From Diphasiastrum complanatum (Eukaryota; Streptophyta; Lycopodiopsida; Lycopodiales; Lycopodiaceae), in contig CM055111.1 of NCBI GenBank assembly GCA_029204225.1, forward strand, positions 25,488,404 through 25,552,403: a stretch of DNA of 64,000 bases, read 5' to 3'. Shown here one piece after another: positions 4,743 through 62,842 of the stretch. The first letter of the stretch is position 1; every line of letters begins with the position of its first letter. Below the pieces are notes generated by a model that ran no database searches, was not told where the DNA came from, and saw only the letters and a program-made list of their open reading frames with translations. The translations under genes were made by a program, and so were the position numbers.

Positions 4743-7700
4743 ATGCCACGAGGTTATCATGAGGTCTTGAAGCTGGCCACCATCCTCTTATTCCGATGCA
4801 GCGTAAGGCTGTTGTTGGTGATTTGCATGGTAGCATACAGAAGCAGCGGCCATATTACAGCAACAGCAGCGTCTCCTGAAGTCAGTATTTTGCTAGATCT
4901 GCAAAACAGCCTTGTCGATCCTCATGATCTTCTTGACAACTGGAACTCATCCGATTTGCTGCCATGTGAGTGGACAGGAGTTAGCTGCAACAATGCCACA
5001 GGCTTGGTCACTGCATTGGATCTTTCGGACATGGACTTGGAAGGACCTGTGCCGCAGGGAGTCTGTCAGTTACAAAACCTCACTTTTCTCAACCTAGGAA
5101 ACAATTATCTCAGTGGGCAGTTTCCTCAAAAATTGCTTGAATGCACCAGGTTGATCTACCTTAATGTGAGCCAGAATTTGATTGTAGATATCCTTCCAGA
5201 AAACATCTCCCAACTTAATCTGTTAAGAGATCTCGATTTAAGTGGCAATAACTTCTCGGGTTCAATACCTCCGGGCTTTGGAGAGCTTCCTGAGCTACAA
5301 AGCTTGAATTTAACGAACAACCTACTGAATGAAACTATTCCTGGGTATCTGGGGAAGCTGAGCCAGCTGAAATGGCTTGATCTTGCATACAATCCTTACC
5401 AGTTGGGAAGGATTCCAGAAGAACTCGGAAACCTGACCCAGCTGCTCAATCTCCACATGACTATGGCCAATTTGATTGGCCCTATCCCAGCCTCCTTTGG
5501 GAATCTCACAGAGCTCACATACTTCTTTGATTTGTCACATAATTTTCTGGAGGGAAGCATTCCTCCAGGAATCATGCGCCTTCCAAAGCTTACCAAAATG
5601 GAGCTGTATGACAACTTGCTCTCAGGGGAGATTCCTTGGAATCTTAAAGGCTTGTTGGCAATCACAGATATTGATCTATCAAGTAACAGGCTTAATGGAA
5701 GCATCCCTTCTGAAATTGGGCAGCTAAAGACCTTGGAGCTACTGCACTTGTGGTCTAATCAGCTAACAGGGGAGATACCAAATGGGCTTTCAAATCTACC
5801 AAACCTTGGAAGATTGAGACTTTTCAACAACAAATTGTCTGGTAATCTTCCACAAAGCTTTGGAATTGCATATCCTTATGTTTATTTTGATATCTCTATA
5901 AATCAGCTGCAAGGATCTATCCCTCCCTACCTATGCAATGGTGGTAAGCTACTCGAATTCATAGTTTTCAATAATAATTTCTCGGGAAATCTTCCAGAGA
6001 CTTATGGTAATTGCTCCAGCTTGTTTAGGGTTTTTGTCAACAATAACAGACTGTCTGGGATGATCCCTACTGGCTTCTGGAATTCCTCCCACCTCTACAT
6101 AGCTGATTTCTCCTACAATAAATTTGAGGGCATTATTCCTCCAGAAATTGGCCTGGCTAGCAACCTCACAAGCCTCAAATTATCAGCGAATGATTTCAAT
6201 GGCAGCATTCCGCTTGAAATAGGCAAGGCGACAAATCTCAACAAGTTCATGGCGAGCTATAATCGATTCTCTAGCAGTATTCCAGTAGAAGTAGGCAATC
6301 TAGTTAGCTTGAATCAGCTCTATCTAGATCACAATCAGTTCACAGGAAGCATACCCTCAACACTTGGCAACTGCTACAAATTGTCCATTCTTATGCTGTC
6401 CAACAACAGGCTAATGGGTTCCATTCCATTCGGGCTTGGTAACCTTTCAGTGCTCACTCAACTTGATCTTTCACATAATCAACTAAATGAAACTATTCCT
6501 TCGGAGCTAGGAAATCTTAGATTCTCAGATTTTAATGTCTCTTTCAACAATCTAGTGGGATCAGTGCCCAAAGGATTGATAATTGGTGCTTTCAACACTA
6601 GCTTCATAGGCAATCCGGGGCTCTGTGGGGAGCATTTGGATGGCTTAAGCTCTTGCGTTCAAATGGGAAGCCGCCACAATGATGGACATACAGCTTTGAT
6701 ATGGATATCTGCAGTAGGCACATGCCTGGTTGGAATAGTCTTCCTTGTGGGAGGATTAAGCTTCTTATTCAGAAAATCATGCAACCCATTCCAGGAAAAG
6801 CAATCTAGCACATTGTGGAGCCTGACATCTTTTCACAGGTTAGCATTCAATGAGTATGATGTGCCAGGAAGCTTGGATGAGGACAACGTGATAGGAAGTG
6901 GCGGATCTGGTACAGTTTACAAGAGCACACTAAACAATGGCCAGACAGTAGCAGTAAAGAAGCTTTGGACAAACAGCAAGGGAAACATTTTGCAGGACCA
7001 TGGATTCAAGGCAGAGATAGAGACATTGGGTAAGGTTCGCCACAAGAACATAGTAAAGCTCTTGTGCAGCTACTCTAGTGCGGATGGCAATTTGCTGGTG
7101 TATGAGTACATGCCAAATGGTAGTCTGGGAGATTTGCTTCATGGACCAAAGGCTGGTACGTTGGATTGGGCAACCCGCTATAAAATTGCTCTAGGTGCAG
7201 CTGAGGGCCTAGCATATCTCCACCATGACTACACCCCTCCAATCTTGCATTGCGATGTGAAATCGAACAATATTCTGCTAGATGAAGATTATGAAGCTCA
7301 TGTTGCCGACTTTGGGGTTGCCAAGATTCTTGAGAGCTGCTCGGAAGATGTCTCCATGTCGAGAATTACTGGCACATATGGCTACATTGCTCCAGGTAAC
7401 AGGCCACTTACCTCATTCACCAACAAAGCTTTTTTTTCTTAATTCTCTCTTCATTTTCCCTACAATACAACAACCTTTATGTTCTGCTTGCATCTCTTTG
7501 ATTAGCTTCTGCTATTCTATTCTAGTACCTCGCGAAATCTTTTTCACAAATATATCAGGCGTAGTTTACTAGTTGACAGTAATTTCTCTTTTACAATAAG
7601 AGACTGACATCTTTAGATTTTCCCTTGTGTTTGCAGAATATGCCTACACGTTGAAGGTGAATGAGAAGAGTGATATTTATAGCTTTGGTGTTGTGCTACT

Positions 7701-8097
7701 GGAGCTCGTGACTGGAAGACAACCAGTTTCTGCAGAGTTCGGGGATGGCATAGACATTGTGAAGTGGGTTTGCAACAAGATCCAATACGATGATGGGGTG
7801 CAAGAGGCACTGGATTTGAGACTTGGGCTAGAAGCACAAGATAGCATACTGGCAGTGTTGAGAGTGGGGCTGCTGTGCACAAACTTAGTGCCTGGCAAAC
7901 GTCCCTCCATGCTTGAGGTTGTTCAAATGCTCAATAATGCCAACCCCACGAACTCAGCTCAGCATTCCAGCAAAGATAAAAGTATAGCCTCAAAGCTCTC
8001 CCATCCCCATAATGAATATAAATATAGTGATGATGATGATGATGATGATGAAGATTATGTTGACGACATACTCCATGATGTCATTGTAAAGTTGTAG
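4743..8097 (+). CDS. HSL: HAESA/HSL-type leucine-rich-repeat receptor kinase (two exons)
   Basis: Plasma-membrane receptor kinase of LRR class XI, the HAESA/HAESA-LIKE group, whose known members bind IDA-type peptides. Exon 1 is 4743-7395, a 241-bp GT-AG phase-1 intron is 7396-7636, and exon 2 is 7637-8097. Joining restores the APEYAYTL activation-segment motif and gives 1,037 residues, close to the family's usual length. In order: a signal peptide (about 1-38); an LRR cap with C75 and C82; about 21 LRRs of the plant GxIP type; a single transmembrane helix (about 651-676); then a kinase with its glycine loop at 718-725, VAVKK lysine 739, DFG at 856-858, and the family signature NEKSDIYSFGVVLLELVTG. 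The tail is highly acidic (seven consecutive Asp from a GAT repeat). Oddities: the catalytic loop reads HCD (836-838), not HRD, so this is a non-RD kinase; and the motif reading RxR in Arabidopsis HAESA is R429-V-F431. The ATG at 4743 is the only one that leaves a full signal peptide. The assignment to the HAESA clade is firm; the ligand is unknown. Confidence 0.93.
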
Positions 8098-19189: not shown

Positions 19190-21789
19190 CCAATTCAGCT
19201 TGGTGTGCTTGCTAATGATGGAGATCTAGATCCATGGTGGATTGATAGTGGAGCAAGTTCACACATGACTTTTCACAAAGAGTACTTCACTTCTTTGTTG
19301 GCATATGGAGATGACAAGAGGGTGTTTTACATAGCCAATGATGGGATTGGCACAATTCCTATTTCTCTCTCTACAAATAGGAGTTCATTCTATCTATTAC
19401 CAAGAATTTTACTTATTGTGAGTCAATTGCCAAGTAAAGGCCTCGAAGTTGAGTTTGATGGAGATGCTTATGATCAAAAGGAAGGATATCTTGATTGCAA
19501 AAGGTAAAAGACAAGAGAAGTTGTTCAAACTAGATGCTTGTGTTATTGCTAACCAAGTTGGATGTGTTGCAAGAGAGCAAATACCTATTCAAGAGGTTTG
19601 GCATAAAAGGATCAACTTCAAGTCATTTGAGGTAATGCCTAGAAAGCAAGTTGTGATAGGTCTTCCAAATTCTTTAAAAAGTAGCAATCATGTTTGCGAG
19701 TCTTGTGCTTTGTCAAAGTCACATAGACTACCTTATACTAGATCTACATCTAATCTACAAAGCCTTTTCAAGTTGTACATTCGGATGCTCATGGAATTAC
19801 TACAATTAGCAATAGTGGAGCTAAGATGTATGTAGCTTTCATTGATAATTTTAGTAGATTTTGTTGGATCTCTCTACTAAAGAGCAAGAATGAAGTGTAT
19901 GCTCTCTTTGTTAAGTTCAAGAATGCAAGGGAGAACCAATTTTCCACAAGGATCAAGTGCTTAGGGAGTGACAATGGTGGAGAGTACATATCTACCAAGT
20001 TCAAGGCTTTTTGTGATAAGCATGGGATCAAGATCCGTGAGTATACAACACCAAGGATCCCACAACAAAATGGAGTGGCTGAAAGGAAGAATAGGACTTT
20101 ATGTGAAAGTGCTGAAGCCATGAGTTCAAGTGCTAACCTTGGTAAGCCATTTTGAGATCAAGCTTTGTTGTGTGCTGATTTCTTGTGCTATAGGTGGCCA
20201 AGTGCTATTTTGGATGGAAGGACACCTTTTGAGAGAGGAGGTCGAGTGTCGACTTTCTTAGAACTTTTGTATGCACATGCTATGTCAACATTACACTTGA
20301 TGATAGGACCAAGGAGGATCCCTCTTCAAGGAAAGGTATACGTTTTGGATATAGTGAGGTGAGTAAAGCCTATAAGGTTTACATTCCTTCTACTAACAAG
20401 GTGATTGTTGGTAGAAATGTCATTTTTTATGAGGGAAACATTCCAAAAGTAACTTCAAGCATTATTGATGGTGATGTGGATGGATCTAACATTCTTGATG
20501 TTGATGTAAAGGATCCTACTTTAGATGGTGAGATAAAGGACCATCATCAAGTCAAAAGCCAAGGAGAACATCAAGGGAAAGACAAATGCCTTCAAGGCTC
20601 ACATATGATGAAAAGGATAAGCAAGTAGTTTTTGGAAATTATATTGCTTTCCTAACCTCTTTTGATGAACCTTCAAGCGTAGATGAAGCAAGGAACAAAG
20701 AGGAGTGGATCCAAGCAATGGATCTTGAGTATCAAGCTCTTATGAAGAATGGAACATGGAGATTGGTGGAGTTATCTAAGGACAAGAAAGTTATTGGATG
20801 CAAATGGATCTTCAAGGTGAAGTAAACAAAGATGGATCTATCAATAAGTACAAGGCAAGGTTGGTGGCAAAAGGTTATGCTCAAGAACATGGGATTGACT
20901 ATGATGGAACCTTTGCACCCGTGGCAAAGATGGTGAGTATTCGGATCATCATTTCCCTTGCTACTCTTTATGGATGGGATCTATGGAAATTGGACATTAC
21001 AAATATTTTTTTGAATGGTGATCTTGTGGAGGAAGTGTACATGAAGCAACCCGAGAGCTACATTTCTTCTACCAAGCCAAAGCATGTGTGTTTACTACAA
21101 AAGAGTTTGTATGGCCTTAAGCAAGCACCAAGGAGTTGGTATGCTAAGATTAACACTTTTTTACTCTCTCAAGGCTTTGTTATGAGTGAGTATGATCATT
21201 CACTTTATTATAGGTTTGCTAGAAATGATGTTACCATCTTGCTAATCTATGTGGATGATATCATCTTGAGTGGTGGAGACAATCAAGATGTGGAATGCAA
21301 GATCCTAGTGAGGAGCATTGGAAGCTAGGGAAACGAGTTTTGAGGTACATCATTGGAAGTCGAGATTTTCATAGGTGATGGAGCTATATCATCGATGTCG
21401 AAGAAACAAGCCACTATCTCATTGTCATCTAGTGAGGCCGAGTACAAAGCTCTTACACATTGCACGAAGGAGATGATATGGATCAAGAGGATGATCAAGG
21501 ATCTTCACTTACTGGATTTTTCAGACAGCCCAATCATCTTTGTGACAATCTATCAGCCCAAAGGTTTCTAACTAGTCCTATCTTTCATGCTAGGAGCAAG
21601 CATATTGAGGTGGCGTATCACTTTGTGAGGGAGCAGGCCATGGCAAAGGAGATGGAGCTTCAACATGTGTCCTCAGGGAATGTGTAGCTGATATCTTCAC
21701 CAAAGCATTGGGAAAGGACTTGTTCATGAATCATAGGACTTCACTTGGAGTGTTTTCAAAGTCTATACTTAAACTAATTTAAGAGAGAG
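19190..21789 (+). pseudogene. Ty1/copia element D, decayed, with canonical RT and RNase H remnants
   Basis: This relative of family A still shows the ordinary copia order. Protease: DPWWIDSGASSHM. GAG-pre-integrase: VWHKR and CESCALSKSHRLPYTRS. Integrase: FIDNFSRF, LGSDNGGEYIS and PQQNGVAERKNRTLCESAEA. RT start: WIQAMDLEYQALMKNGTWRL, KARLVAKGYAQEHGIDYDGT, NGDLVEEVYMKQPESY and SLYGLKQAPRSWY. RT core: LLIYVDDIILSG. RNase H: KKQATISLSSSEAEYKALTH, HIEVAYHFVRE and ADIFTKAL. There are at least six frameshifts or stops. Two internal deletions remove the RT thumb (after YVDDIILSGGDNQD) and part of RNase H (after GSRDFH). The PPT-like 'aagagagagt' precedes the LTR. It is the in-window reference for what family A copy 1 has lost. 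Confidence 0.92.
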
Positions 21790-22439: not shown

Positions 22440-23367
22440 AATCTAGGGTTGGCCGATAATACAATGGCACTCTGATTATTACATAATGTAATTGTCAAGG
22501 TAAACTGATTCAAACTAATGTTTGACAATAAATTTCTCAACCAAAATGCTTATTTAATAGATTGAGAAACAACAATATACTCTGTTTCTGTCAAGGAAAG
22601 AGCAATAGAGATTTGTTATGGCTATTCCAAGAGATAGGACTGTCATTGAGGAAGAATGTAATCCAAATGTGGATTTACAAATATCTGCATCTCCTCCCCA
22701 ACTTCCATTGAAATATCCACCGAGCCGATGAAGATTGTCGTTGTCGACTTCTCCATAGCAGATGGACTAGTCCGTAGTAGCTCGAATGTATCTCATGACT
22801 CTTACAAGAGCCTTACAATGATCCAAGTATCGATTGATAAAGATACTCTCTCATATGCTCCTCTTTCTGCTTGGTCTGAGGACATTGGTCCTTCGACAAT
22901 CGCTGGCCTGGATTCAGCGGTGAGTGATCTAATTTACAATTGATCAGATTATATATGATAAGAGTATTGTGAAGATAATGTTGTTGAGTGATATAGATCA
23001 GCCGTCTCGCTGTCCCTGTGAATTTGAATGCCCAAACAGTAGTGAGCTTCACCAGATCGGTCATGTCAAATTTGGAAGACATCATCCGTTTAGATTCCTT
23101 CACCATATTGGTACTGTTGCTGAAAAGCAACGTGTAGTCGATGTACAAGGTGATGATAATGAAGGAATGATGCATTGACTTGAATTAAATATTGCAGTAG
23201 GCAATGCTTGGTTGAATATTGTGTTGGATGAGGAATGTGTTGATCCTCTGAAAACAAGCTCTTGCTTATTGCTTCAGGCCATTCCATCAGAGTTACCAGA
23301 GGATCAAGAATTTGAGTCTGGAGATACACATCATGCTCAAGGGTGGTTTATGGAGTTTACAGACATG
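22440..23367 (-). pseudogene. Ty1/copia element B copy 1, 3' part (RT to RNase H), split by element A1
   Basis: Minus strand, in element order from 23,367 down: EGYVLEGM, then VCKLHK (RT), a frameshifted VHRLHVAFQ region, SFIIITLYIDYTLLFSNSTN (the YVDD catalytic motif changed to YIDY), KFDMTDLVKLTTVWAFK, LDHSPLNPG, EYLYQSILGSL, then RNase H remnants (DSPISWNS, LCNNQSAIV-like) ending near 22,440. The frame is broken repeatedly. The 5' half lies beyond element A1, at 29,900-31,300. The plus-strand copy at 34.9-37.2 kb shows the same RT uninterrupted by an insertion. Confidence 0.88.
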
Positions 23368-23372
23368 ATGTC

Positions 23373-24026
23373 TGTGAAAAATACAGATCCTAAGTGGATC
23401 TAAACTCCAAGATCATTGGCTTGAATGCTTGCACTCCAAACTACATAAGCTAGGAATTGGCAACACATTCTATGCTACCTAGAATGCAAAGAACTTGATC
23501 AAAAAGCATTTATCACAAATGGAAACTTCCATAAACATCAAGTGCGGCCCAAAATAGCATTATACAGTCCATAATACATCAGCCTACCACTTTTGGAAAG
23601 CACCTAAGATCATACACAATAGCTTGAAGACAATACACACAACAATGCTCTCAATGGAGGAAGAAACAATGACAATGATCTATTGATCTCAATGAAGCAT
23701 ACAAAAGGTTTCTCCAACCTGTTCTCCACGAATTTCAGCCTAATATAGGTGAGAGAGATGACTCTCTCTCCTCTCTCTAGAACTTAGGACCCAATTTTAG
23801 GACACCAGTAACCTAAAATAGCCAATTTTGGCCTATATGTCCAAATAACATGATTTTAGTGTCATTTAGAAGGTCCCGAAGTTTGAGACTTCTTCAACAT
23901 GAAATATATACTAGAATAAAAGTATCTAGGTCTCTTTCACACGTGTGAAAGGTTAGATCCAAAACTATGTACAAAAATTGCCAATTTAGGCCTCAAACTA
24001 GCTAGGAAATGTTGACAATTTTCACA
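23373..24026 (-). repeat. 3' LTR of element A1
   Basis: 654 bp, TG...CA. It contains a 16-bp perfect palindrome TTTCACACGTGTGAAA (23,935-23,950) and a purine-rich GAGAGAGG segment. It matches 29,241-29,894 without a visible difference. Confidence 0.97.
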
Positions 24027-24037
24027 CTCCCTCTTCA
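24027..24037 (-). promoter_or_regulatory. polypurine tract of element A1
   Basis: Minus-strand TGAAGAGGGAG lies directly against the 3' LTR, where plus-strand DNA synthesis is primed in LTR retrotransposons. The stop codon of the element ORF is at its edge (24,040). Confidence 0.85.
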
Positions 24038-24039
24038 AC

Positions 24040-27000
24040 TTAACTTGCTAGTTTTACAACACTACTTTGCTCCAACCTAAGAATGATCTCCATCATGATG
24101 ATAGATCTCTTTTCAAGTGTTCTAATATGTACAATATGAAGTACAACATAATTGATATAGATAATAGTGCCCATATAGGATGCTTCACTATTTCTTACAT
24201 CAATTTTACATAGAATGGTGAACAAGATACATGTAAAAGAACATAGAATAACAATGAAAGGATTCCTCCATGTATCCACCTTTGAGTTCTCTATAAAACA
24301 GCAGCAAACAAGTTGTAAGTGAAAGTAACCAACAGGTGTTTGCATGCCTCGTCCACATTCCACTATGCCCATAGTGAATGCACCATGTATCTCCATGAAT
24401 GAACCTCCATCACCACCTTGCCTTTGTAGATCTCCAATCCACGAAAGCCCTTGAGTGAATGAATGCCAAAATGATGTGTTCTCTGTTCCATTTGAATGAG
24501 CAAAACCTGAACTTGAAATACTTGAAGTATCTCCACAAGATTTGCATATAACGCTTGATCCTACATTGTCAACAATTTGCCAATTTGCCAACACTAGGAT
24601 GCTAGATCTTGAACTTTGCTCAAAAGTAAACATATTGACCACTTCCATATCTTTTGAGATTTGAATGAATGCATGTACTTGATCATAAAAACCAGCAATG
24701 ATAACTATTCCATCTCCAAGATCCAAAAGATGCAAAACTGTGCAACTAGTTTCATTGAATTTTGACAATTCCAACACATTGACATGACAATGTTCATACA
24801 TGAGATTAAACAAGTAAGGTAGAGTAAAAGGACACTTCCTTGCTGCTCCAAGAACCTTACTTGAACCTTCAAGGACCTGCAAAAACAGATCCAAGATGCT
24901 TTGCCCATGTGGCTCCCCTTTCATGCTTTTGACTAGCTTCCAATTGCTACTTGCCTCTTGGTGTTGATGAAGCAATTCAAGATCAACATCTTGATCTTCC
25001 AATAAAACATCAAGGACTTTGCATTTATAAACATCTTCAGATCTGAACCTCTGAAGAAACTCCCTCTCAAACACATGATTAACATCCCACAAGATCTCAT
25101 CATTGCTTGATTTCAACCTTTCACTATAGTTAGTGAAAACAATGTCACCATCATAAACCAAAAGATAGATTTCTACACTTCTATCCAACATGAAGTAGAG
25201 TAGATGAAGTTGAGTATCAAACCTAATAAAACCAGCCCATTTGAGCTCAAACCAAACCTCAACGAGATCTTCCTTGCCTTGAAGAAATTGCCACTTGAGT
25301 TGCTCCATGTAAATATCTTCTTCAAGATCACCATTCAAGAAGGCATTAGTAACATCCATTTGCCACATATCCCAATCATAAAGAGTTGCAAGAGAGATTA
25401 GGATTCGAATAGTTACCATCTTTGCCACGGGTGCAAAGGTCTCATCATAGTCAATACCATATTCTTGAGCATACCCCTTTGCCACCAACCTTGCCTTGTA
25501 CTTGTTGATTGATCCATCTTGATTTGTCTTGATCTTGAAGATCCACTTACAACCAATTGCCTTCTTGTCCTTTGGAAGCTTTACCAACCTCCATGTGTTG
25601 CTTTTGATGAGTGCTTGATGCTCATGATCCATGGCTTGGATCCATTCCTTCTTTTGAATTGCTTCACCTACACAAGTTGGTTCATCAAAAGAGGTAAGAA
25701 AAGCAAAGTTAGAGTTGTCCACCACTTGCTTTCCTTTTTCATCATAGGTTAGCCTTGATGGCTTAGCCCTTTGCCTTTGAGTCTTCCTTGAAGTTTGCTT
25801 TGGAGTGGCTTCTCCATCTTCATCCAAGACATCTTGCACATCATGATGATTAGTAGGCACATCAACATCAACATCAACAACATTGGAAACATTCTCTTCA
25901 TGAAAGATGACATCCCTACTTATGACAACTTTCTTTGTAGAAGGAATGTACACTTTGTAAGCCTTGCTTACTTCACTATAGCCAACAAACACACCCTTCT
26001 TTGATGAAGGATCTTCTTTAGTTCTATCATCAAGTGTGATATTGACAAAACATGTACATCCAAAGATCCTACAATGCTTGACACTCGGCCTTCTACCATA
26101 AAGAACCTCATGAGGAGTTTTACCATCCAAGGAAGCACTTGTCCATCTATTACATAGATAGTTAGCACATGCTAAAGCTTCCCCCCAAAAAGACTTAGCA
26201 AGATTAGCATGTAGTCTCATTGCCTTGGCACATTCACAAAGGGTTCTATTCTTCCTCTCGGCCACTCCATTCTGTTGTGGAGTCCTAGGACTAGACATCT
26301 CCCTCTTAATCCCATGTGCTATACAAAAGTCTTTGAACCTATTTGAGGTGTATTCCCCTCCATTATCAGATCTTAAGCATTTGATCTTTGTATTGAATTG
26401 GTTTTCCATTTCATTCTTGAACTTGACAAATGCAGCAAACACTTCATCCTTACTTTTAAGAAGATAGATCCAAGTATACCTACTAAAGTCATCAATGAAA
26501 GTTGCATACATCTTTGCCCCACCATTGCTAGTTGTACTAGAAGAATGAATATCAGAATGCACAAGTTGAAAAGCTTCTTTAGATCTAGAAGTAGATCTAG
26601 AATAAGCAAGTCTATGAGATTTGGACAAGGCACAATGTTCACAAACACTATTGTTTGCAACAAGACTTTTAGGGAGACCAAGAACAAGCTCTTTCTTTGC
26701 CATTACCTCCAAAGATTTGAAGTTGGGATGGCCCAACCTCTTGTGCCAAACTTCTTGGTTTGTCAATTGCTCCCTAGCCATACATCCTTCATGATTAGAG
26801 ATCACACATGCATCAAGCTTGAAAAGTTTACCATGCCTCCTACCTTGAGCAATCAAGGATCCACATTTACTTATCAAACATGCATCTCCAATGAACTCCA
26901 CATCAAGTCCTTTGTCAATCATTTGACTTACACTAAGCAAATTCTTAGTGATTGAAGGAATGTACAAAACATTTTCAAGATTTGCTTTCCTATTTGTTGA

Positions 27001-28068
27001 AAGGGAAATAGGAATAGTGCCTATGCCTTTGATGTCACATTGACCATCATTTGCAGTGTAGATGATGTTACCTTCTCCCTCATAAGACAATAAGGATGTA
27101 AAGTATTCCTTATGTCTTGTCATGTGAGATGAGGCTCCACTATCAATCCACCAAGGATCATTATCATCTATGTTGGCTAACAAACTTGAAGTCATAACAA
27201 GTGATTCACATGTGTTATGTTCTTCCTCATCTATTGTAAGATTTCCTTGCCTCTCTCCTTGCTCTCTTTTCTTCTTATAACATTCATTTGCAAAATGACC
27301 TTTTATCCCACAATAAAAGCACTTGAACTTTGACTTATTGTTCTTAGTAGAAGAGGAAGAGGAAGAGTGATCATCATGATCAAAGTTACCACCTTTGGAC
27401 CATTTCCCTTTGCCTTTACCTTTGCCCTTGAATTTGCCTTTTGTGAAGAAAGCCTCTTCACCTCCACCTTGCAAGGATGCACCATCAAGCTTTGATTGCA
27501 ACCTATGTTCTTCAGCCAATAAGATTTCTTGCAAGTCAACCACACTTGGCAAGACTCTTTGAATGGCAAAACTTTGCACAAGGTTAGCATGTTCATTTAG
27601 CAAACCATTCAACATAACTTGGACTATTTCACCATCTTTTATGTTCTCATCAATGCATGCTAAATCATCACTTAGGGACTTAACTCTCAAGATAAATGCA
27701 TGAGCACTTTCACCCTCTCTTTGCCTACTAGAAAATATTTGTCTCCTTAGGGTCAATACCCTAGATGTGGACTTTGATTCAAAGAGCTTCTTTAAGGCAT
27801 TCCATGCCTCACTTGCACTTTGACACTTTCCAACTTCCTTGAGAAGTTCATTTGTAGCATTCATTTTAATGATATGAAGAGCCCTTTTGGCCTTCTTATC
27901 AAACCTTTGTTGCTCTTGAAGTGTGAGAGGTCTCTCTTCAATTTCTGCAACTATGTCCATGAGTTCATTCAACTCAAGTAAGGACTCCATCCTCACTTTC
28001 CAAGTAGAGTAGTTTGATGAACTCAACCTTTCACTAGACTCTAGCATGATCCCACCATTGGAAGCCAT
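24040..28068 (-). CDS. A1 polyprotein: gag-protease-integrase-partial RT fused to a novel C-terminal module
   Basis: 1,342 residues, one frame, ATG at 28,066-28,068. Residues 1 to about 200 are copia gag (UBN2-type, starting MASNGGIMLESS). A CCHC zinc knuckle, CFYCGIKGHFANEC, is near 260. The protease DSGASSHM is near 310; GAG-pre-integrase has VWHKRLGHPNFKSL and CEHCALSKSHRL. The integrase core has Asp in FIDDFSR, Asp in LRSDNGGEY and Glu in NGVAERKNRTLCE. RT begins near 800 (WIQAMDHEHQAL, KARLVAKGYAQEYGIDYDET, MDVTNAFLNGDLEEDIYMEQ) and stops at about residue 921. From there about 420 residues match no RT or RNase H: KWQFLQGKE, YLLVYDGDIVFTNYSERL, LLEDQDVDLELLHQHQEASS, CPFTLPYLFNLMYEHCHVNV, a CKSCGD pair of cysteines, and two hydrophobic segments near the C terminus (NPFIVILCSFTCILFTILC; IIYINYVVLHIVHI). 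The canonical YVDD core and RNase H are absent, so the element should need an RT supplied in trans. The same module is present in A2. Confidence 0.93.
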   Translation of the reverse strand: MASNGGIMLESSERLSSSNYSTWKVRMESLLELNELMDIVAEIEERPLTLQEQQRFDKKAKRALHIIKMNATNELLKEVGKCQSASEAWNALKKLFESKSTSRVLTLRRQIFSSRQREGESAHAFILRVKSLSDDLACIDENIKDGEIVQVMLNGLLNEHANLVQSFAIQRVLPSVVDLQEILLAEEHRLQSKLDGASLQGGGEEAFFTKGKFKGKGKGKGKWSKGGNFDHDDHSSSSSSTKNNKSKFKCFYCGIKGHFANECYKKKREQGERQGNLTIDEEEHNTCESLVMTSSLLANIDDNDPWWIDSGASSHMTRHKEYFTSLLSYEGEGNIIYTANDGQCDIKGIGTIPISLSTNRKANLENVLYIPSITKNLLSVSQMIDKGLDVEFIGDACLISKCGSLIAQGRRHGKLFKLDACVISNHEGCMAREQLTNQEVWHKRLGHPNFKSLEVMAKKELVLGLPKSLVANNSVCEHCALSKSHRLAYSRSTSRSKEAFQLVHSDIHSSSTTSNGGAKMYATFIDDFSRYTWIYLLKSKDEVFAAFVKFKNEMENQFNTKIKCLRSDNGGEYTSNRFKDFCIAHGIKREMSSPRTPQQNGVAERKNRTLCECAKAMRLHANLAKSFWGEALACANYLCNRWTSASLDGKTPHEVLYGRRPSVKHCRIFGCTCFVNITLDDRTKEDPSSKKGVFVGYSEVSKAYKVYIPSTKKVVISRDVIFHEENVSNVVDVDVDVPTNHHDVQDVLDEDGEATPKQTSRKTQRQRAKPSRLTYDEKGKQVVDNSNFAFLTSFDEPTCVGEAIQKKEWIQAMDHEHQALIKSNTWRLVKLPKDKKAIGCKWIFKIKTNQDGSINKYKARLVAKGYAQEYGIDYDETFAPVAKMVTIRILISLATLYDWDMWQMDVTNAFLNGDLEEDIYMEQLKWQFLQGKEDLVEVWFELKWAGFIRFDTQLHLLYFMLDRSVEIYLLVYDGDIVFTNYSERLKSSNDEILWDVNHVFEREFLQRFRSEDVYKCKVLDVLLEDQDVDLELLHQHQEASSNWKLVKSMKGEPHGQSILDLFLQVLEGSSKVLGAARKCPFTLPYLFNLMYEHCHVNVLELSKFNETSCTVLHLLDLGDGIVIIAGFYDQVHAFIQISKDMEVVNMFTFEQSSRSSILVLANWQIVDNVGSSVICKSCGDTSSISSSGFAHSNGTENTSFWHSFTQGLSWIGDLQRQGGDGGSFMEIHGAFTMGIVECGRGMQTPVGYFHLQLVCCCFIENSKVDTWRNPFIVILCSFTCILFTILCKIDVRNSEASYMGTIIYINYVVLHIVHIRTLEKRSIIMMEIILRLEQSSVVKLAS

Positions 28069-29228
28069 GATTCTAATGTTTCTTCAACTTTTAGGTTCTG
28101 TCCTAAAGCACTTAGCACTCACTTTTCTCTCAACAAATGATAGATAAAGAGATCTATGAAGATTTAGGACCCTAAAACACTTCTATCTTGAACCTAGATG
28201 GTTTCCAAGCATAGAAAGGAAGATTGAAACACATGCAACACTTTGCACACACTAAGAATGGATTACAAAATCAAACCAACCTGAACACACTCTTGCTTAA
28301 GCTCTCAAACTTTCCAGCAAGTGACCAAATCAAGTTATGGTGTGAAGAGTTACTTGCATTCTTAGAAAATACCCAAAACTAGGATGCCAAGATTACCTAG
28401 TAATGAACAAACTTGATCAACATATGATCAACACACTAAGATATTGATTCAACCTGTAAAACCACATGTAAACCACACTTCTAAAAGTTTATAAACTCCA
28501 GCAAGTGATAAATACAAGATTTAGAGGTGAATGAATGAGCACACTTAGTGAATCACAAGACTAGCTTCACTATCTTGTCAAATCTTGGTGTTTAGATGTA
28601 GATCTAAGATCACTTCACATGAGAATGTTCCTCAACCTGTTAAGAACCTGAAAACACACTTGCATAATGGTTAACACCTTCCAGCAAATGCTCCAATCAA
28701 ATTACATAAGGAGAGTTACTTACATGCTCAACAAAGTACACCAAAATTTATGCCAAAATTGATGACAATCTTTACAATATGCTCTTCACAATGGAGCTTA
28801 CAATATGTTCACCCAAAAAAGGGGATCTTTCATCCAAATGGGAGCTTTGCTCAGCCTTTAGGAGAATTACAACTCACTCAAAAGAGCATTTGTCATCCAC
28901 TTAAGGAGAAGTTTCATCCACTTAAGGAGAGTGTTCATCCAAGAATGGAGATTGTCAACAATAGGATTGAAAAGAACATTGTTAGTATTGAATATGCACA
29001 AGCCTCACAATCACAAATGATTAGGTGTTATGATCTGAACCAAAATAGTTTCTTTTCAGCCTCTGATCTTCAATAGACTTGAAATATGCTTTTGATCCAC
29101 AAGTTCAACTCACAAAACAAAGGTTAGTAAGATTTGATCAACAAAGCAATGCAAAATCATGCTAGAACTTGATCAAACATCCAAATATCACCAAAAATGG
29201 AATACTTACTGTAAATAGAAGCCAACCA
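28069..29228 (-). other. 5' leader of element A1
   Basis: About 1.16 kb between the primer site and the gag start. It contains short tandem repeats around 'catccacttaaggaga' (about 28,895-28,940). The homologous leader of A2 has the same repeat array (58,400-58,480). An antisense frame (28,750-29,076, plus strand) ends in the same peptide as its A2 counterpart. Packaging and dimerisation signals would be expected here, but none is identifiable by eye. Confidence 0.7.
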
Positions 29229-29240
29229 GCTCTGATACCA
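29229..29240 (-). promoter_or_regulatory. primer-binding site of A1 (initiator-Met tRNA)
   Basis: Minus strand TGGTATCAGAGC immediately follows the 5' LTR with no spacer. This is the standard plant copia site complementary to the 3' end of initiator methionine tRNA. Confidence 0.95.
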
Positions 29241-29894
29241 TGTGAAAAATACAGATCCTAAGTGGATCTAAACTCCAAGATCATTGGCTTGAATGCTTGC
29301 ACTCCAAACTACATAAGCTAGGAATTGGCAACACATTCTATGCTACCTAGAATGCAAAGAACTTGATCAAAAAGCATTTATCACAAATGGAAACTTCCAT
29401 AAACATCAAGTGCGGCCCAAAATAGCATTATACAGTCCATAATACATCAGCCTACCACTTTTGGAAAGCACCTAAGATCATACACAATAGCTTGAAGACA
29501 ATACACACAACAATGCTCTCAATGGAGGAAGAAACAATGACAATGATCTATTGATCTCAATGAAGCATACAAAAGGTTTCTCCAACCTGTTCTCCACGAA
29601 TTTCAGCCTAATATAGGTGAGAGAGATGACTCTCTCTCCTCTCTCTAGAACTTAGGACCCAATTTTAGGACACCAGTAACCTAAAATAGCCAATTTTGGC
29701 CTATATGTCCAAATAACATGATTTTAGTGTCATTTAGAAGGTCCCGAAGTTTGAGACTTCTTCAACATGAAATATATACTAGAATAAAAGTATCTAGGTC
29801 TCTTTCACACGTGTGAAAGGTTAGATCCAAAACTATGTACAAAAATTGCCAATTTAGGCCTCAAACTAGCTAGGAAATGTTGACAATTTTCACA
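29241..29894 (-). repeat. 5' LTR of element A1
   Basis: 654 bp, TG...CA, apparently identical to the 3' LTR, and followed by the second copy of the ATGTC target duplication. On the minus strand it should hold the element promoter; the sequence near AGTATATATTTCATG is a TATA candidate. Confidence 0.97.
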
Positions 29895-29899
29895 ATGTC

Positions 29900-31300
29900 T
29901 CATACCTTCAAGAACATATCCTTCATGTTGTAGCATGTAGATGTCTTTTTCGATGACTCTGTTAAGATAAGTTGTATGTATATCGAGTTGAATCCAAAAA
30001 CTCGGAGGTTCTTCAATGAAGGCTTAGATCCTGTCCAAACCTCATGTGGTGTTTTGCTTGAGAGGCCTTGGTCGAACATCTATTCTAGATGTAAGCTACA
30101 GTGGAGGTAGTTTCAGCCCATAAGCTCTTTGGCAAAGATGTGTGCGCTAGCATGCATTTGGCTAACTCGACCAGAGTACGAGTACTCCTCTTGGCTAAGC
30201 CGTTTGATTGAGGTGAATAGGGAGTGATAAACTGTTGTTCAATGCCTTGGCTCTGGCAGCACTCGTTGAATTCGGTAGAGATATACTCTCCACCATTGTC
30301 GGACCTCATGGCTTTGATTGTTTTGCCAATTTCTTTCTCTGCATGCTCCTTGAAGTTTTTGAAGCAATCAAAAGCTTATGATTTCTTCTTACTAAAGTAC
30401 ACCAATGTGCATTGGATATACAGTAGCCTTGGAATAAAGTATTCCTTAGTTAAGGAAGGGACTCAGCTCAACTGCATACAAGCCATCATCTTGTGTGTTA
30501 TTGTCGCCCAGGTGAACATATCTCTTGGTACTGTAAGGCGTATAGGACTTGAAACAACTGATATAGTTGATCATGTGTTGTGTGGCTCCAGAATCTAAAA
30601 ATCATGGGCTGTCGTTTGATGATTCTTGATGGCTAGTCATGAATGCATCATGATCCACTTCTTGATTGGGTTGTGGTACTTCTACAACTGCATTTGCCAC
30701 TTGATTTGATTGTGCTTTGTTGTTGTTCTTGGCTTGTAGTATGCGGCAATCTCGTGGTTGGTTTGCTTGTAGTATCTACAGAATAACTTATTCCTTGTCG
30801 GCGGGTTTGACTGCTCTTGACATTGTGTCAGCTTCTAGCTTTGTTTTGGTTGCTTCAGGCCTTTCTTCTTCTGCTTAGTCTAGCCTTTGTTGGTGTATAA
30901 GGTGTGAGAGTCAGCAGTCGAGAAATTGGAGGGTTCATTCCTTCTAGTGTCTTCCCACAGCAACATTGTGATGACTCTTGAAAGAGTCAGCTCTGGGTGC
31001 GTCATGTTGATTATCACCCAGCTGTCGTATGAGGTTGACAAGCTTGAAAGTATTAGCGCAAGCATCTTCTGCCTCTACTTCTCTATTAGCGCCTATTCTT
31101 CCTCTATTAGCAGCTAATCAGCCCTTGTGTGCTGCGATTCTACTTGACAGAGATTCTGCCAAACAACGGGTCTGCTTGGTAACAGGTCTGCTATGGCTTC
31201 TAGCGACTGTCTGGTTGTAGTACAATGTTAGTGTGTCTCGCTTGTTAGTGGCACACCTACAACCTGATTTGAATCCTTGATTGACAATGGTAGCTCATCT
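29900..31300 (-). pseudogene. Ty1/copia element B copy 1, 5' part (gag, protease, integrase)
   Basis: Continuation of the host element on the far side of A1. In minus-strand order from high coordinates: a gag UBN2 segment (31,065-30,880: LSSLSTSYDSWVIINMTHPE), a degraded zinc-knuckle region near 30,750, a protease/DSGA-type block at about 30,600-30,490 (YVHLG-type), and integrase (30,309-30,085: MRSDNGGEYISTEFNECCQS, YSPQSNGLAKRSTRTLVELA, with Glu of the catalytic triad replaced by Lys). Then comes the start of RT (DIYMLQHEGYVLEG) running into the insertion point. It has many stops and an internal deletion relative to other copias. Confidence 0.85.
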
Positions 31301-34947: not shown

Positions 34948-37235
34948 ACCCAGAGCCGACTCTTTCAAAAGTCATCACAATGTTGTTGCGGGAAGACACT
35001 AGAATGAATGAACCCTCCATTTTTTGACCTGTCGACTTTCACGTCTTATACACCAACAGAGGCTTGACTAAGACAAAGAAGAAAGGCCCGAAGCAACCAA
35101 AGCAAAGCCAGAAGCCGACACAACATCAAGAGCAGTCGAACCCGCCGACAATGAATATGTTGTTCTGCAAATACTGCAAGTGAACCAACCACGATATCCA
35201 AGACTGTCGCATACTACAAGCCAATAACAACAACAAAGGGCAATCAAAGCAAGTGGAAAATGTAGTTGCAGAAGCACCACCTTCCAACCAAGGAGTGGAT
35301 CATAATGCATTCATGACTAGCCATCAAGAAGCATCAAATGACAGCTCATAGTTTCTAGATTCCAGAGCCACACAACACATGACCAGCCATATCAGTTGTT
35401 TCGAGTCCTATATGTCATACAATACCAAGAGATATGTTCACCTGGACGACAATAACACACAAGCTATTAAAGGTGACGGTACAATAAGATTGAGCTTTGC
35501 AAATGATCAGTCTAAACTACTTTTCAATGTCCTATATATACCAAATCTTTCTACAAATCTGCTCTCTGTAAGCAAAATTACAGATCTAGGACATAAAGTA
35601 GAATTTGAATTTGATTAGTGTAAAGTAGTCGATAGGATAGGCAAGATCCTAGCACTTGAAAATATGCATGGATACTTGTACATATTAAGTCATTGCTTTT
35701 ATGCCTCTAGTCAGGCTCTTAACACTTATGTATAGATCAATAAAAATCTACTTTGGCATTATAGACTTGGTTATTTGAATCATGCTTATGTATTACAAAT
35801 GTCTAAGCAATTTATTATTCTTGATCTAGAATATCCAGATAGGAAAGTCGAATTACTTGTCTGTCAAGACTGTTTAGTCGGTAAGCAGACTAGTTTAGAT
35901 CAAGCCATCAACATGTTGCTAGAATTTTATTAGATATTGTACATACAAACATTTGTGGCCCAATGCAGAATCCTTTACTAAAGGATGCAAAATATTTTAT
36001 TACTTTTATTGATGAATTTTTTAGAAGGACTATGGTGTACTTTATGAAGAAGAAATTAGAAGCTTTCAATTGCTTCAAAATCTTTAAGAAATTGACAAAA
36101 CAATCAAAGCCCTGAGGTCCGACAATGGTGGAGAGTATATCTCTATCGAATTCAAGGAGTACTGCCAAAGCCAAGGCATTGAACAACTATTTATCACTCC
36201 CTATTCGCCTCAGTCGAATGACTTAGCTGAGAGGAAGAATCGTACCCTGGTCGAGTCAGCCAAATGCATGCTGGCACACGCATCTTTGCCCAAGAGCTTT
36301 TGGGCTGAAGCTGTCTCCGTTACAGCTTACATCCAAAACAGATCTTCAAGGCCCTCTCAAGCAAAACACCACATGAGGTTTGGATAGGATCTAAGCCTTC
36401 ATTGAAGAACCTTCAAGTTTTCGGATTCAACTCGATGTACAGACATCTTATCTTAACAGAGTCATCGAAGAAGACATCTACATGCTACAACCTAAAGGAT
36501 ATGTTCTTGAAGGTATGAAAGATCATGTATGTAAACTCCATAAAGCACTTTATGGCTTGAAGCAATCAGAAAGAACTTGGTTTTAGAGGATCAACACATT
36601 CCTCATCCAACACGATTTTCAACCAAGCATTGCCTATTGCAATGTTTATTTCATGTTAGTGCAACATTCCTTCATTGTCATCACCTTGTACGTCGACGAC
36701 ACGTTGCTTTTCAGCAATAGTACCAATCTGGTGAAGGATGCTAAACAAATGATGTCCTCCGACTTCGACATGACCGATCTGGCGAAGCTCACTACTGTCT
36801 GGGCATTCAAATCCACAGAGATAGAGTGAGACGACTGATCTATATCACTCAACAAAGGTATCTTCACAATACTCTTATCAAATATAATTTGATCAATTGT
36901 AAATTAGATCACTCACCGATGGATCCAGGCTTGCGATTGTCAAAGGACCAATGTCCTCAGACCAAGCAGAAAGAGGAGCATATGAGAGAGTATCTTTATC
37001 AATCGATACTTAGATCTCTCATGTATGCAATGGTCTGCACAAGACCTGATAGCGCTTTTGTAGTCGGCTCACTCAACCAATTCATGGCTAATCTTTGCAT
37101 CACATGGCATGGATATCAATTGATCCAATTTCAGATCCTATTGGAGATGAACTCATTCATGTCAGCCACGCATTATCTTATGACGAAAATGCATAACTTA
37201 TTGATGAGCAGATTCTAAATCATATGAATCCTACA
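34948..37235 (+). pseudogene. Ty1/copia element B copy 2, plus strand, decayed
   Basis: Second copy of family B in the opposite orientation to copy 1. It starts inside gag (homologous to 30,930-31,020 minus), then a protease region (35,340-35,618: HMTSHISCFESYMSYNTKRY, YVHLDDNNTQ, NLSTNLLSVSKIT), degraded GAG-pre-integrase, and integrase (about 36,110-36,370: LRSDNGGEYISIEFKEYCQS, YSPQSNDLAERKNRTLVESA with catalytic Glu, FWAEAVSVTAYIQNRSS). RT follows directly (DIYMLQPKGYVLEGMKDHVC, LHKALYGLKQSERTW, ITLYVDDTLLFSNSTN with the YVDD motif intact) and then LDHSPMDPGLRL, EYLYQSILRSLMYAMVCTRP. Frameshifts lie between most blocks, and sequence is missing between integrase and RT. RNase H and the LTR were not found. 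Confidence 0.88.
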
Positions 37236-44300: not shown

Positions 44301-46856
44301 AACTTTTGTATGACTTTTCTTTTGCATGTAGTATACTGAATTTGCAGGTGTACTGAGCAAGTAATAATTATCCCCATCCCCAAGCACTTTCTGATTTTCT
44401 ACAATTTCCACTTTTCCTGGAACAACCTGCAAGCGTTTGTAATCAGGATCTGTTTCATTATGCAGGGAACCCTCACCTCATGTACGTGGACACCGACATA
44501 TTTCTCGTAGTCTTTCAATATCGCCTCCACGCTATCGTACATCAAGGTCTCCTGTTTTACGAAGACACAGTCCTCCAAATAGACGTTCTCCTCGAAGGCA
44601 TTTGCGATCACCCCCTCAGTATCGATCTCCAGCACGACGCAGACGCTCACCTTCGCGTTCTCCTTCACTTCCAAGGCGTAGACATGCTCCCTTGCATTCA
44701 CCATCACCTCCATCAAGACGTAGGTATCCACACTCACCATCACCTCCAAGGCGTAGACGCTTACCACATTCTCGTTCACCCCCAAGGAGAAGGCACTCAC
44801 CTCGACGCTTACATTCACCTTCCAACCGAAGGTTTTCACCGTTGCATTCTCGCTCGCCTCCAATTCGACATCGCTCACCTGTCAGGCGACTCCGCTCACC
44901 ACTGCAGTCTCGTTCTCCTCCAAGGCGTTCTCCACCCTTGTCCCGATCTCCTGTAAGAAATCTACGCTCTCAACCACTTTCTCGGTCACCTGCACGGCGA
45001 TTGCACTCACCCCTACCACCTCGTTCGCCTGCAAGGCGTTTGCGATCGGCATTACCCTCTCGGTCCCCTGCAAGGCGTCTGCGTTCGCCGGTACAGTCTC
45101 GGTCTCCTGGAAGGCGTCTGCGTTCTCCTATGCAGTCTCATTCTCCGGCTAGGCGTCTGCGCTCACCAATGTATTCCCGTTCCCCTCCAAGGCAGCCGTG
45201 CTCTCCATTGCAGTCTCGCTCCCCGGCCAGGCGTATATGCTCACCTGTTTACTCTCCAAGAAGGAGTCTGCCTTCGCCAGTACTTGCTCACAGTTCTCCA
45301 TGGCATGCAAAATCTCCTTTGCAAGTTCGTTCACCTGTGAGGCGCATATCGTCACCTCCGCAGACGCATTCTCCTCCTAGGCGTACACGCACGCCCATGC
45401 ACTCTCCTTATGCGAAGCCAATTCATTCTCCTCTGCATTCCAATTCTCCTGACAAGTTTTCTGATTCGTCTTTGCACTCTCACTCACCCCAGCAGCCTGT
45501 GCAGAAAGAACCACACTCTCCATTGCATTTGCGTTCTTCTCCAAAACGAAAACGTTCTTTGCAAAATTCCCAATCACCTCCAAGGAAGAAGCAGTTGTCC
45601 CGACATCGGTCTCCTTTGGAAGCGCCTTCTCTTGCACATTCTCTTTCACCTAAGAGGCAACCAAAATCCCCTGTGCATTCTTGCTCTCCGAGGCAAAGGT
45701 TGAAACCTCCTACATCACATCCTTCTCAACGATCTCCTAGGTATGCTCCTTATCATTCTGGTCGTCCAGATTGTCTTTTGCTAAAGCAGCCTGCTGTCCT
45801 TTGGTGTCATGATATGAATACTTCACATTTGCTTTCCTAAGCTGCAAGGGGCAAGGGGCTTTGTTCAGATTCAGAACATTGACATTTTCTCCTTGTACAG
45901 TTCCGCAAATCCTGTGCCAAGTGGTAAACTATCGAGCAGAAGAGTTGAAGCTTTTAATGGACCATTCGTGCAATCTGCCAGTCCTCCAAGTACTGCCAAC
46001 AGTCATCGCAGGTAGGTCCTTGACTTATGCAAAAGTGATTCAGCTCTCTGTGTGTACTGTGCACCTTTTTCCCCCTTTGCAAGTCCTTTGTGGGGCTAGA
46101 GAAATTGAACTCCAGACCTTAACCAACACACTGCAGTTAGAACATCCGTAACTGATTATACCTGTGAAATGTTGCAGTCAAAGTCCTGTTCAAACTCAAA
46201 GAACTCTTAGCAGACAGCATGTAGTTCCTTACGGAGGAAGGGAACCAAGAGCAGCGGCAGGATCATTTCTACAAGATAGGTGAATAATCTTTTGTAATAC
46301 AAGTTGTAACAGGTAGATTGATTGGGTCTAAAGTACTTGTTAGCTTATGAATTTTGTTCATTGGATATTGTGTCTCATATTGAAAGCGAAACACTTAACA
46401 TGATCTGTTTAGGGTTGATGTAGTGTGGCACTGAGAGTGGTTATTAACTCCGCTCTGCTGTTGTCACGTCTTGTATTATGTTCATTCTCTGGTTATTGCT
46501 CCAGATCTCCTGGAACAAGTGAAGAAAGGCTTGAAGCAAAGAGACGTAAAAAAGAAGAGAGACGTGTACGGAGAGAACAGAAGCGAAAGAGACGGGAAGA
46601 AAGAAGGAAAAGGAGGGAGGAGAGGCGGACTGCAAAGGCTGCAGCTAAGTCAAACATATCTGTTGGTTGGGTATCTGCAAGAGTTAATATAAATAATGAC
46701 TCGGGAACATCTGATGGTGATGATGACAACGTCCCAGAAACAAGGCCTCGGACTGAGGATGAAGAAATGGAGAGTGAGCAAAAGAGGATTGAAAATGAGT
46801 TAAGGAAGAAAGCTCTCGAGTCACTGAGAGCTAGGAAGGGTATTTTGTCATCCTAA
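38316..46856 (+). CDS. SRRM1: SRRM1/SRm160-like PWI-domain splicing co-activator, 11 coding exons
   Basis: Nuclear serine/arginine-repetitive matrix protein, a pre-mRNA splicing co-activator whose PWI domain binds nucleic acid. Exons reconstructed from GT-AG sites with matching phases: 38316-38336, 38546-38635, 39140-39262, 39345-39512, 40093-40176, 40257-40402, 44214-44285, 44466-45740, 45901-46011, 46178-46279, 46505-46856; total 2,544 nt, 847 residues. The start MSGGFFR|GTSSEQDTRF matches the plant SRRM1 N terminus as I remember it. PWI domain at about residues 43-125, with the P50-W51-I52 triad and LLGFEDEVLINFIYGLLD; then a charged helix (AEEQRIFSEIQRKKDQ); then a long RS/SP domain, mostly exon 44466-45740, built on repeats like SPPRRR and RSPARRLRSP. 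The end is basic (EERRKRREERR), then acidic, closing with KKALESLRARKG, a family signature. Introns are phase 0 in the PWI part and phase 2 from exon 6 on. Intron 6 is 3.8 kb and holds dispersed repeats and a poly-C tract. Confidence 0.94.
38790..39126 (+). repeat. intronic minisatellite of about 30-bp units in SRRM1 intron 2
   Basis: About 11-12 degenerate copies of a unit like 'atggcacagcttacataggg' fill the 3' part of intron 2 up to the true acceptor at 39,139. Most units contain 'gcacag' or 'gcag', each a possible AG acceptor-like sequence. The real acceptor, 'gcgacacag', resembles the unit. Confidence 0.88.
41480..41890 (+). repeat. dispersed repeat R1, copy 1 (SRRM1 intron 6)
   Basis: About 400 bp including 'gatttgattggctttgctc', 'ccttcatcatgac', 'ccttcagctcca', 'gtgcatgtgacct', 'gtgagtacgggatgttgtaac' and 'gatggaattgatgg'. 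Related copies lie at 42,450-42,740, 50,270-50,480 and 50,590-50,970. Its first 110 bp hold a tandem duplication of a 54-bp piece ('ttagttaggtttgagcaag...', 41,491 and 41,545). No coding capacity, TIR or poly-A tail is visible. Confidence 0.75.
42450..42740 (+). repeat. dispersed repeat R1, copy 2 (SRRM1 intron 6)
   Basis: Shares with copy 1, in the same order: 'gccattcagctcca', 'aattcagtaca', 'gtacaaatgtgagtg', 'cgggagtatggatgttgtag', 'ggtccatgctgtgcatgatg' and 'gccacagggttgca'. It is more diverged at its left end. Confidence 0.7.
43975..44006. repeat. poly-C tract in SRRM1 intron 6
   Basis: Three C runs (8, 11 and 9 bases) separated by one or three bases. The G-rich minus strand could fold as a G-quadruplex; the C-rich transcript strand could bind poly-C-binding proteins. 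It lies about 200 bp before the intron's acceptor at 44,213. Confidence 0.9.
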
Positions 46857-56715: not shown

Positions 56716-58024
<1,309 letters not shown>

Positions 58025-62829: not shown

Positions 62830-62842
62830 GTTGAAGAGGGAG

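Follow-up and report, generated by a model that had tools for sequence, protein, structure and literature searches.

How does a copia element with no recognizable RT palm, thumb or RNase H of its own come to look as if it had moved only recently? This question is raised by A1, an LTR retrotransposon in the 64,000-nucleotide stretch of Diphasiastrum complanatum DNA analysed here (the window, which lies on contig C20). An earlier, sequence-only reading saw in A1 a young element whose RT core and RNase H had been replaced by an unknown module, which was taken for a stable accessory part. Comparison with related copies in the same genome, of which 1.74 Gb was searched, leads us to a different account. 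A1 is very likely a recombinant of two copia families that share one plant genome: A0, which has a normal RT and RNase H, and A2, an older non-autonomous family.

Results

Structure of A1

The features of A1 and of a second copia relative nearby are listed below in window coordinates.

23373 to 29894, minus strand: A1, a whole copia-type LTR retrotransposon (identical 654-bp LTRs, PBS, PPT, TSD)
29895 to 29899, no strand: TSD copy of A1, ATGTC on the plus strand, from the sequence
29598 to 29894, minus strand: 5' LTR, U3 part (approximate), A2-like and not A0-like (A1-A2 0.92-1.0, A1-A0 0.52-0.92, in 60-column blocks)
29241 to 29597, minus strand: 5' LTR, R-U5 part (approximate), A0-like and not A2-like (A1-A0 0.95-1.0, A1-A2 0.38-0.95, in 60-column blocks)
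29229 to 29240, minus strand: PBS, TGGTATCAGAGC
24040 to 28068, minus strand: single ORF of 1342 aa, with gag, zinc knuckle, PR-like domain, integrase, N-terminal part of RT, and the module
25306 to 28068, minus strand: part of the ORF attributed to A0, from gag to the RT motif EEDIYM, by identity to A0 over 1301 bp and over 187 bp beside the junction
25299 to 25311, minus strand: recombination junction, the 13-nt block TACATGGAGCAAC common to A0 and A2, from A0, A1 and A2 copies side by side
24040 to 25305, minus strand: the module (421 aa and stop), attributed to the A2 family by sequence comparison
24985 to 25230, minus strand: module stretch aligned to A0 RT DNA, with YDGD (module residues 51-54) where YVDD is expected
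24432 to 24561, minus strand: module stretch with a tentative alignment to the RNase H region of A0
24027 to 24039, minus strand: polypurine tract (PPT) region, GTTGAAGAGGGAG, the PPT ending in GAGGGAG
23730 to 24026, minus strand: 3' LTR, U3 part (approximate), A2-like
23373 to 23729, minus strand: 3' LTR, R-U5 part (approximate), A0-like
23368 to 23372, no strand: TSD copy of A1, ATGTC on the plus strand, from the sequence
20798 to 21776, plus strand: another copia relative, interrupted, that continues into a normal RT (YVDD) and RNase H

The LTRs, tRNA-type PBS, PPT and 5-bp TSD mark A1 as a copia-type LTR retrotransposon, and Pfam profiles place gag, PR and IN ahead of RT, the domain order of copia elements. 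Several observations of the sequence-only reading hold, coordinates included. The ORF is unbroken from 24040 to 28068 and leaves copia homology within RT; the relative at 19.2-21.8 kb does have the normal RT/RNase H continuation, though split by frame breaks; and A1 is young, its LTRs (23373-24026 and 29241-29894) being 100% identical across 654 bp and flanked by the 5-bp TSD. On the ORF, Pfam recognizes Retrotran_gag_2, the PR-like Pol_BBD, gag_pre-integrs, rve, SH3_retrovirus and part of RVT_2, the last over profile positions 2-101 of 244 only, and no Pfam domain above cut-off follows this N-terminal part of RVT_2. Searched alone, the module gives just TMEM18, at E 0.082 and below the Pfam cut-off. 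With an RVT_2 match that stops at 101 of 244 positions and YDGD for YVDD, A1 does not have the complete RT and RNase H of an autonomous copia element. Because it has no recognizable RT palm/thumb or RNase H, RT supplied in trans, as had been proposed, is the natural inference.

A1 is a multi-copy subfamily

It is next to inconceivable that A1 is an assembly artefact or a one-off, since its junction occurs at 78 + 73 = 151 genome sites (≤2 mismatches; 0 for a reversed-pattern control) across many contigs, and the downstream flanks are different in most of the 30 A1 copies fetched. The module is complete at approximately 100% in all 40 genome places scored, the window copy among them (40 of 3219 candidates were scored). 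In the 30 fetched copies, again counting the window copy, it has at most 5 mismatches of 1266 and its frame is open throughout. The 3' LTR is within 4 mismatches of that of A1 in 28 of the 30; the exceptions, L020 and L029, have no position-by-position match to it (a shift or break). The upstream part is within 7 mismatches of 1500 in 26 of the 30, and in the other four (L013, L014, L021 and L024) identity to A1 drops farther upstream. The A1 family thus consists of young copies despite the missing RT, as is expected of a non-autonomous element mobilised in trans.

Copy counts are perhaps somewhat inflated, since certain pairs of near-identical copies could be duplicates made by the assembly.

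A0, a young family with normal RT and RNase H

The normal continuation of A0, EDIYMEQPEGF, is present at 1695 + 1734 = 3429 genome sites (≤3 mismatches; control 0), a count of pattern sites and not of proven intact elements. Our comparisons with A0 rest on one copy, read as three pieces, and 501 bp of a second copy. Across 1301 bp of gag-PR the A0 copy matches A1 at 99.77%, compared with ~84% for two A2 copies, and across the 187 bp of RT up to the junction it matches A1 at 98.9%. Past the junction, the frame of the A0 copy stays open through YGLKQAPRSWY, YVDD and RNase H, and a blastn search with the module found no match in this downstream part. The LTRs of the A0 copy differ at 3 of 655 positions (99.54% identical; TSD ACTCC), a near-identity that indicates that A0 is young. 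The genome that harbours A1 therefore also contains a young related element with a complete RT and RNase H.

A2, an older non-autonomous family

A copy of A2, which the sequence-only reading had not linked to A1, lies in the window itself.

58263 to 63283, plus strand: A2 copy, an older non-autonomous relative, whose homology to A1 stops within the 5' leader at one end and within the 3' LTR at the other
59263 to 60213, plus strand: A2 gag ORF, 316 aa
60546 to 61561, plus strand: A2 middle region, in the place of integrase and the RT N-terminus, its ORF without a Pfam match
61562 to 62829, plus strand: A2 module copy, with one 1-bp frameshift relative to A1
62843 to 63283, plus strand: A2 3' LTR, first 441 bp

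The copy consists of a related gag, a protease-like sequence (53-71% identical to A1 in 100-column blocks), 1 kb without recognizable copia domains, a module ~93% identical to that of A1, and the start of the LTR, and no recognizable integrase or RT was found between 58263 and 63283. The A2 junction occurs at 560 + 581 = 1141 genome sites (≤3 mismatches), and the middle region was present at ≥94% in each of the 40 places scored from 2842 candidates. Among 30 fetched A2-type copies, the module, complete or partial, follows the middle region in all 30, the LTR start follows the module in 21, and the junction word is matched in 29. DEEDYMEQ, which is the copia RT motif EEDIYMEQ minus one residue, stands just upstream of the module; it is exact in 19 of 29 readable junctions, altered by one or two changes or a stop in 9, and absent in the window copy. 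Its retention in most of the A2 copies read provides a switch site common to A0 and A2.

One of the 30 A2-type copies, L047, was selected for its open frame. Its LTRs are 97.55% identical (TSD AAGGC), and an open frame of 829 codons runs from the end of the protease through the module, with a break separating it from the gag frame. When L047 from protease to junction was compared with A1 integrase/RT, only the protease and the integrase start could be matched, with best scores of 145 (null maximum 64) and 59 (null maximum 48); the three pieces that follow scored 48, 36 and 38, within the null.

A1 carries two joints between A0 and A2

With the copies aligned side by side around TACATGGAGCAAC, A1 tracks A0 upstream and A2 downstream, placing the internal breakpoint in parent-shared sequence, the 13-nt block at the RT motif EEDIYMEQ, as in a template switch. 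The LTRs contain a second joint, being A2-like in columns 1 to ~297 and A0-like from ~320 to the end. The change lies a few tens of bases past CTATATTAGG, which we take to be a TATA-like motif, and near the expected U3/R boundary, the position of which is inferred from that motif. During reverse transcription, a new LTR is assembled from the 3' U3 and the 5' R-U5, so that both A1 LTRs would become U3(A2)-R-U5(A0); the U3 of the 3' donor joined to the R-U5 of the 5' donor is the arrangement that we observe. The chimeric boundary is present at 164 + 158 = 322 sites (≤2 mismatches; control 0), about twice the 151 junctions. Among the 59 junctions listed for C1-C11, the exact chimeric boundary flanks 26 on both sides, 26 on one side and 7 on neither, a split that gives lower bounds because LTR sites with mismatches fall outside that list. 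An internal junction together with chimeric LTRs is what a template switch in the course of reverse transcription leaves behind.

It seems unlikely to us that A1 arose when integrated copies of A0 and A2 underwent ectopic DNA recombination or gene conversion. Both families are dispersed and abundant, and head-to-tail A1 pairs with a shared LTR, found at two loci and spaced 5868 bp apart, the length of one LTR and one internal region, may reflect exchange at the DNA level. However, a single DNA crossover would leave an A0-type 5' LTR and an A2-type 3' LTR, whereas uniform U3(A2)-R-U5(A0) LTRs with the switch near the U3/R boundary require a round of reverse transcription. A DNA crossover could still have come first, with transposition following it.

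In the template-switch model, which we prefer, particles presumably contained A0 RNA together with A2 RNA, and a change of template occurred during reverse transcription. A0 would have served as template for the 5' half (gag, protease, integrase and RT to EEDIYMEQ) and A2 for the 3' half (module, PPT and U3), either by way of a single chimeric template with A0 at the 5' end and A2 at the 3' end, or through a first strand transfer from A0 onto A2 RNA and a switch back at the 13-nt block. The product, with gag, PR and IN domains and without a recognizable working RT or RNase H, would then have been amplified to ~150 junction-bearing copies. Most likely A1 RNA was packaged with A0 RNA, RT and RNase H being supplied by A0 Gag-Pol particles; Gag and protease would be nearly identical in A0 and A1 particles. 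A1 keeps its own gag, protease and integrase, and on this model it probably borrows RT and RNase H from A0. The presence of the A2 U3 in A1 suggests that a different promoter may have aided its burst.

The module appears to begin in decayed RT

That the RT core and RNase H have been replaced by a module is correct in that copia homology is lost, but A1 is better described as a product of recombination with a non-autonomous relative, from which it took the 3' half. Nor does the module look like a foreign acquisition of A1: it derives, together with its U3, from A2, where, judged by sequence, it is a frame standing in place of the downstream half of pol. The description of the module as unknown still suits most of it, which matches no identified family; its first quarter, however, resembles a decayed RT.

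Module nucleotides 1-330 score 70 against the colinear stretch of A0 RT (69 for L047), compared with 42 for the best of 32 controls; the z value is 5.73, where none of 19 control targets exceeds 2.09, and 0 of 200 shuffles reach the score of this first part in any of four settings. A tblastn match to A0 at the YVDD/YDGD site has E 0.008 in A1 and 0.073 in L047. The alignment sets A0 HSLYF...LLLIYVDDII opposite module HLLYF...YLLVYDGDIVF, which implies that the catalytic YVDD turned into YDGD. Thus, the first quarter of the module appears to be descended from RT, with YVDD lost.

At the RNase H site there is a weaker in-frame match, FSDSDFAGD against ISSSGFAHS (read from the DNA alignment), and its score of 49 (53 for the same part of L047) is equalled by one of 32 controls, the next reaching 36. 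The piece covering module nucleotides 330-660 reaches 58 (43 for L047) against the A0 RT stretch, which is not its colinear place, and so exceeds the best control at 42; scores against A0 may therefore run high generally. Against an RT origin of the module as a whole, Pfam RVT_2 has no match in it, entire or divided into five pieces, and a small RT profile gives 0.5 bits, a value reached by 4.8% of 2000 shuffles. Alignment of the whole module protein to A0 has P 0.074; the middle of the module gives P 0.165 and 0.17 in global tests, and 0/200 and 0.06 in local ones; and the last 330 nt give P 0.01, 0.005, 0.14 and 0.05 in four settings. The last 300 residues of the module may be decayed thumb and RNase H, or may have another origin.

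A frame-shifted normal RT fails as the whole explanation, the other two sense frames being stop-rich and scoring no higher than shuffles when aligned to A0 (P 0.81 and 0.25), as does an ordinary divergent RT/RNase H, which Pfam does not see. In viral contigs, three stretches matched the search pattern, and none of them encodes a relative of the module.

A further explanation, which we consider rather improbable, is that the module is a host gene fragment, transduced as in the maize element Bs1, acquired by A2 and passed on to A1. Bs1 is not known to carry an RT. The module frame is coding-like, with 0 stops and period-3 composition, and no Pfam family is matched above cut-off; matches in the PDB are weak, the best (E 0.0057) being to an uncharacterised protein. 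Element copies saturated the genome search, in which 40 of 3219 candidates were scored, so that a single-copy host source may lie outside its reach. Against capture, the first quarter aligns with copia RT in frame and in place, most of the A2 copies read retain DEEDYMEQ just before the module, the module ends in KLAS next to the PPT as A0 does, and its 421 aa are close in length to the 390 aa of the missing A0 part.

Is the module functional?

The module frame has 421 codons and 0 stops, whereas 2000 sequences from a first-order model matched in composition had a mean of 24.8 stops (minimum 8) and 2000 from a second-order one a mean of 17.5 (minimum 7). Together with the coding-like codon-position composition, this absence of stops indicates that the module is, or recently was, coding. 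The sequence-only reading went further and took it for a stable accessory part. On present evidence we consider it quite improbable that the module is a working accessory protein, kept for helping A1 and A2 move.

Between A1 and A2, the module has 25 near-fixed differences (one at a site polymorphic in A1), of which 10 are synonymous, 15 non-synonymous and none a stop; random placement of these changes would give 6.2, 17.1 and 1.6, respectively. This test used 18 A2 rows after the near-duplicates L042, L050, L057, L059 and L060 had been dropped. The direction favours a maintained protein, but neutrality is not rejected at P 0.05 (0.06 for the synonymous excess, 0.18 for the absence of stops). 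The frame is also open in all 30 fetched A1-type copies, and through the module in L047, which was selected for openness; the P values for stop depletion in A1 versus L047 (0.028 and 0.097) are not relied on because L047 was picked for its open frame.

Pooled over 15 A2 copies, which include near-duplicate pairs, pN/pS is 0.52 in gag, 0.87 in the middle region and 0.87 in the module. The higher value for the module than for gag counts against a maintained protein, though these ratios reflect mostly post-insertion decay, which weighs on gag and module alike. For polymorphisms in at least three A2 copies, the ratio is 0.28 in gag (21 sites), 0.91 in the middle region (18) and 0.47 in the module (20), the last in favour of constraint; for singletons it is 0.72, 1.02 and 0.74. 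A gag-deleted A2 pair, 8 module differences apart, has three module stops in common, which speaks against a requirement for the protein, though the pair may reflect duplication. Structure prediction from two module sequences (mean pLDDT 33) is evidence for neither side. Overall, these data do not firmly support a working module protein, although weak selection may act on it.

We also considered the speculative idea that the module is a placeholder frame, a pol stripped of catalytic sequence yet kept open and translated because an open frame is itself of use, for example in sparing a long genomic-RNA tail from nonsense-mediated decay or as a Gag-Pol spacer, with selection acting on openness over residues. 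We consider this, too, quite improbable.

Discussion

Our results suggest that A1 is a clean natural record of defective retrotransposons regaining circulation. One template switch is legible twice within it, at the internal junction and at the U3/R boundary, and the product became a subfamily. Having gag, protease and integrase domains and no recognizable RT, A1 can be regarded as a natural separation-of-function mutant, one in which the cis requirements of the parts of copia Gag-Pol could be tested. It is also a reminder that a young element can contain a long open frame without that frame being a new functional gene.

Among the closest parallels is Onsen (Arabidopsis Copia78), for which passages of Sanchez et al. 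2017 (PMC5668417) describe young and old members recombining pairwise in transposition bursts, with recombinant LTRs and the return of old members to the replication cycle. As described there, Onsen resembles A1 in recombination during reverse transcription, recombinant LTRs and the revival of older members. However, the Onsen partners belong to one family and the burst was experimentally induced, whereas the A1 partners were two families, one with complete RT and one non-autonomous, which gave rise to an RT-less subfamily with ~150 junction-bearing copies. In soybean, an autonomous and a non-autonomous partner underwent 'LTR swapping' (Du et al. 2010, by its title), and one sentence of PMC3701649 reports strong amplification of the subfamily. 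By that title alone, the soybean case is like A1 in that an autonomous/non-autonomous partnership was altered by LTR exchange. As far as the cited passages go, recombination in reverse transcription, recombinant LTRs, the revival of old members and LTR swapping are already documented; what A1 adds is a recombinant without RT in which the gag, PR and IN domains are retained and whose subfamily has expanded.

Other plant elements share single traits with A1. In the part of PMC13317346 considered here, BARE-1/BARE-2 and Veju are given as chimeric LTR elements formed by abnormal template switching; they are template-switch chimeras like A1, although the families differ, and in A1 the internal junction and the LTR chimera are tied together within one element. 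The same part describes Bs1 as an LTR element with captured host gene segments, thus, like A1, bearing an unusual reading frame; its segments are identifiable as host genes, whereas the A1 module is partly RT-like and no host source was identified for it in Pfam, the PDB or the 40 genome places scored. Finally, TARE1 of tomato, a mutant copia family in the relevant lines of PMC3701649, was recently amplified, as A1 was, but most TARE1 copies keep the full gene set, unlike those of A1.

Insertion site of A1 and composition of A2

An older copia copy was apparently the insertion target of the young copia element A1, because both flanks of A1 (22820–23282 and 29900–30404) match adjoining parts of a single inverted copia fragment at 36033–37016, from copia RT, with identities of 90% and 85%, respectively. 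The 36.0–37.0 kb segment is therefore close to a paralogous empty site. Judging from sequence comparison, A2, the older non-autonomous family, itself looks like an older mosaic, since its window copy (59263–60545) is approximately 92% similar to A1 (26795–28068) in gag, but only 53–71% similar in the protease region.

Tandem, near-duplicate and deleted copies

Elsewhere in the assembly, A1 copies lie head-to-tail with a shared LTR, both as the pair L032/L033 on contig C19 and as L034 with L014/L015 on contig C12; the repeat unit of these head-to-tail pairs is 5868 bp.

Several fetched copies form very similar pairs, namely the A2-type L041/L042, L043/L044, L049/L050, L056/L057 and L058/L059 and the A1-type L019/L020, the last of which share a downstream flank with a one-base shift. 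In some such pairs, one partner sits on a small contig. Very similar pairs are perhaps haplotype or segmental duplicates within the assembly, and the genome counts may therefore be somewhat inflated.

In two A2 derivatives on contig C6, L055 and L060, the protease region and gag are largely missing. Their modules differ at 8 positions and share three stops, and the two copies possibly represent a further deleted mobile form, or else a duplication.

Other features of the window

Three further features were recorded:

4743–8097, LRR receptor kinase-like gene as judged by eye, two ORFs, probably with an intron
44602–45840, SR-type ORF with many Arg-Ser-Pro repeats; shorter ORFs overlap it on both strands
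about 57850–58000, long GA microsatellite a short distance upstream of the A2 copy
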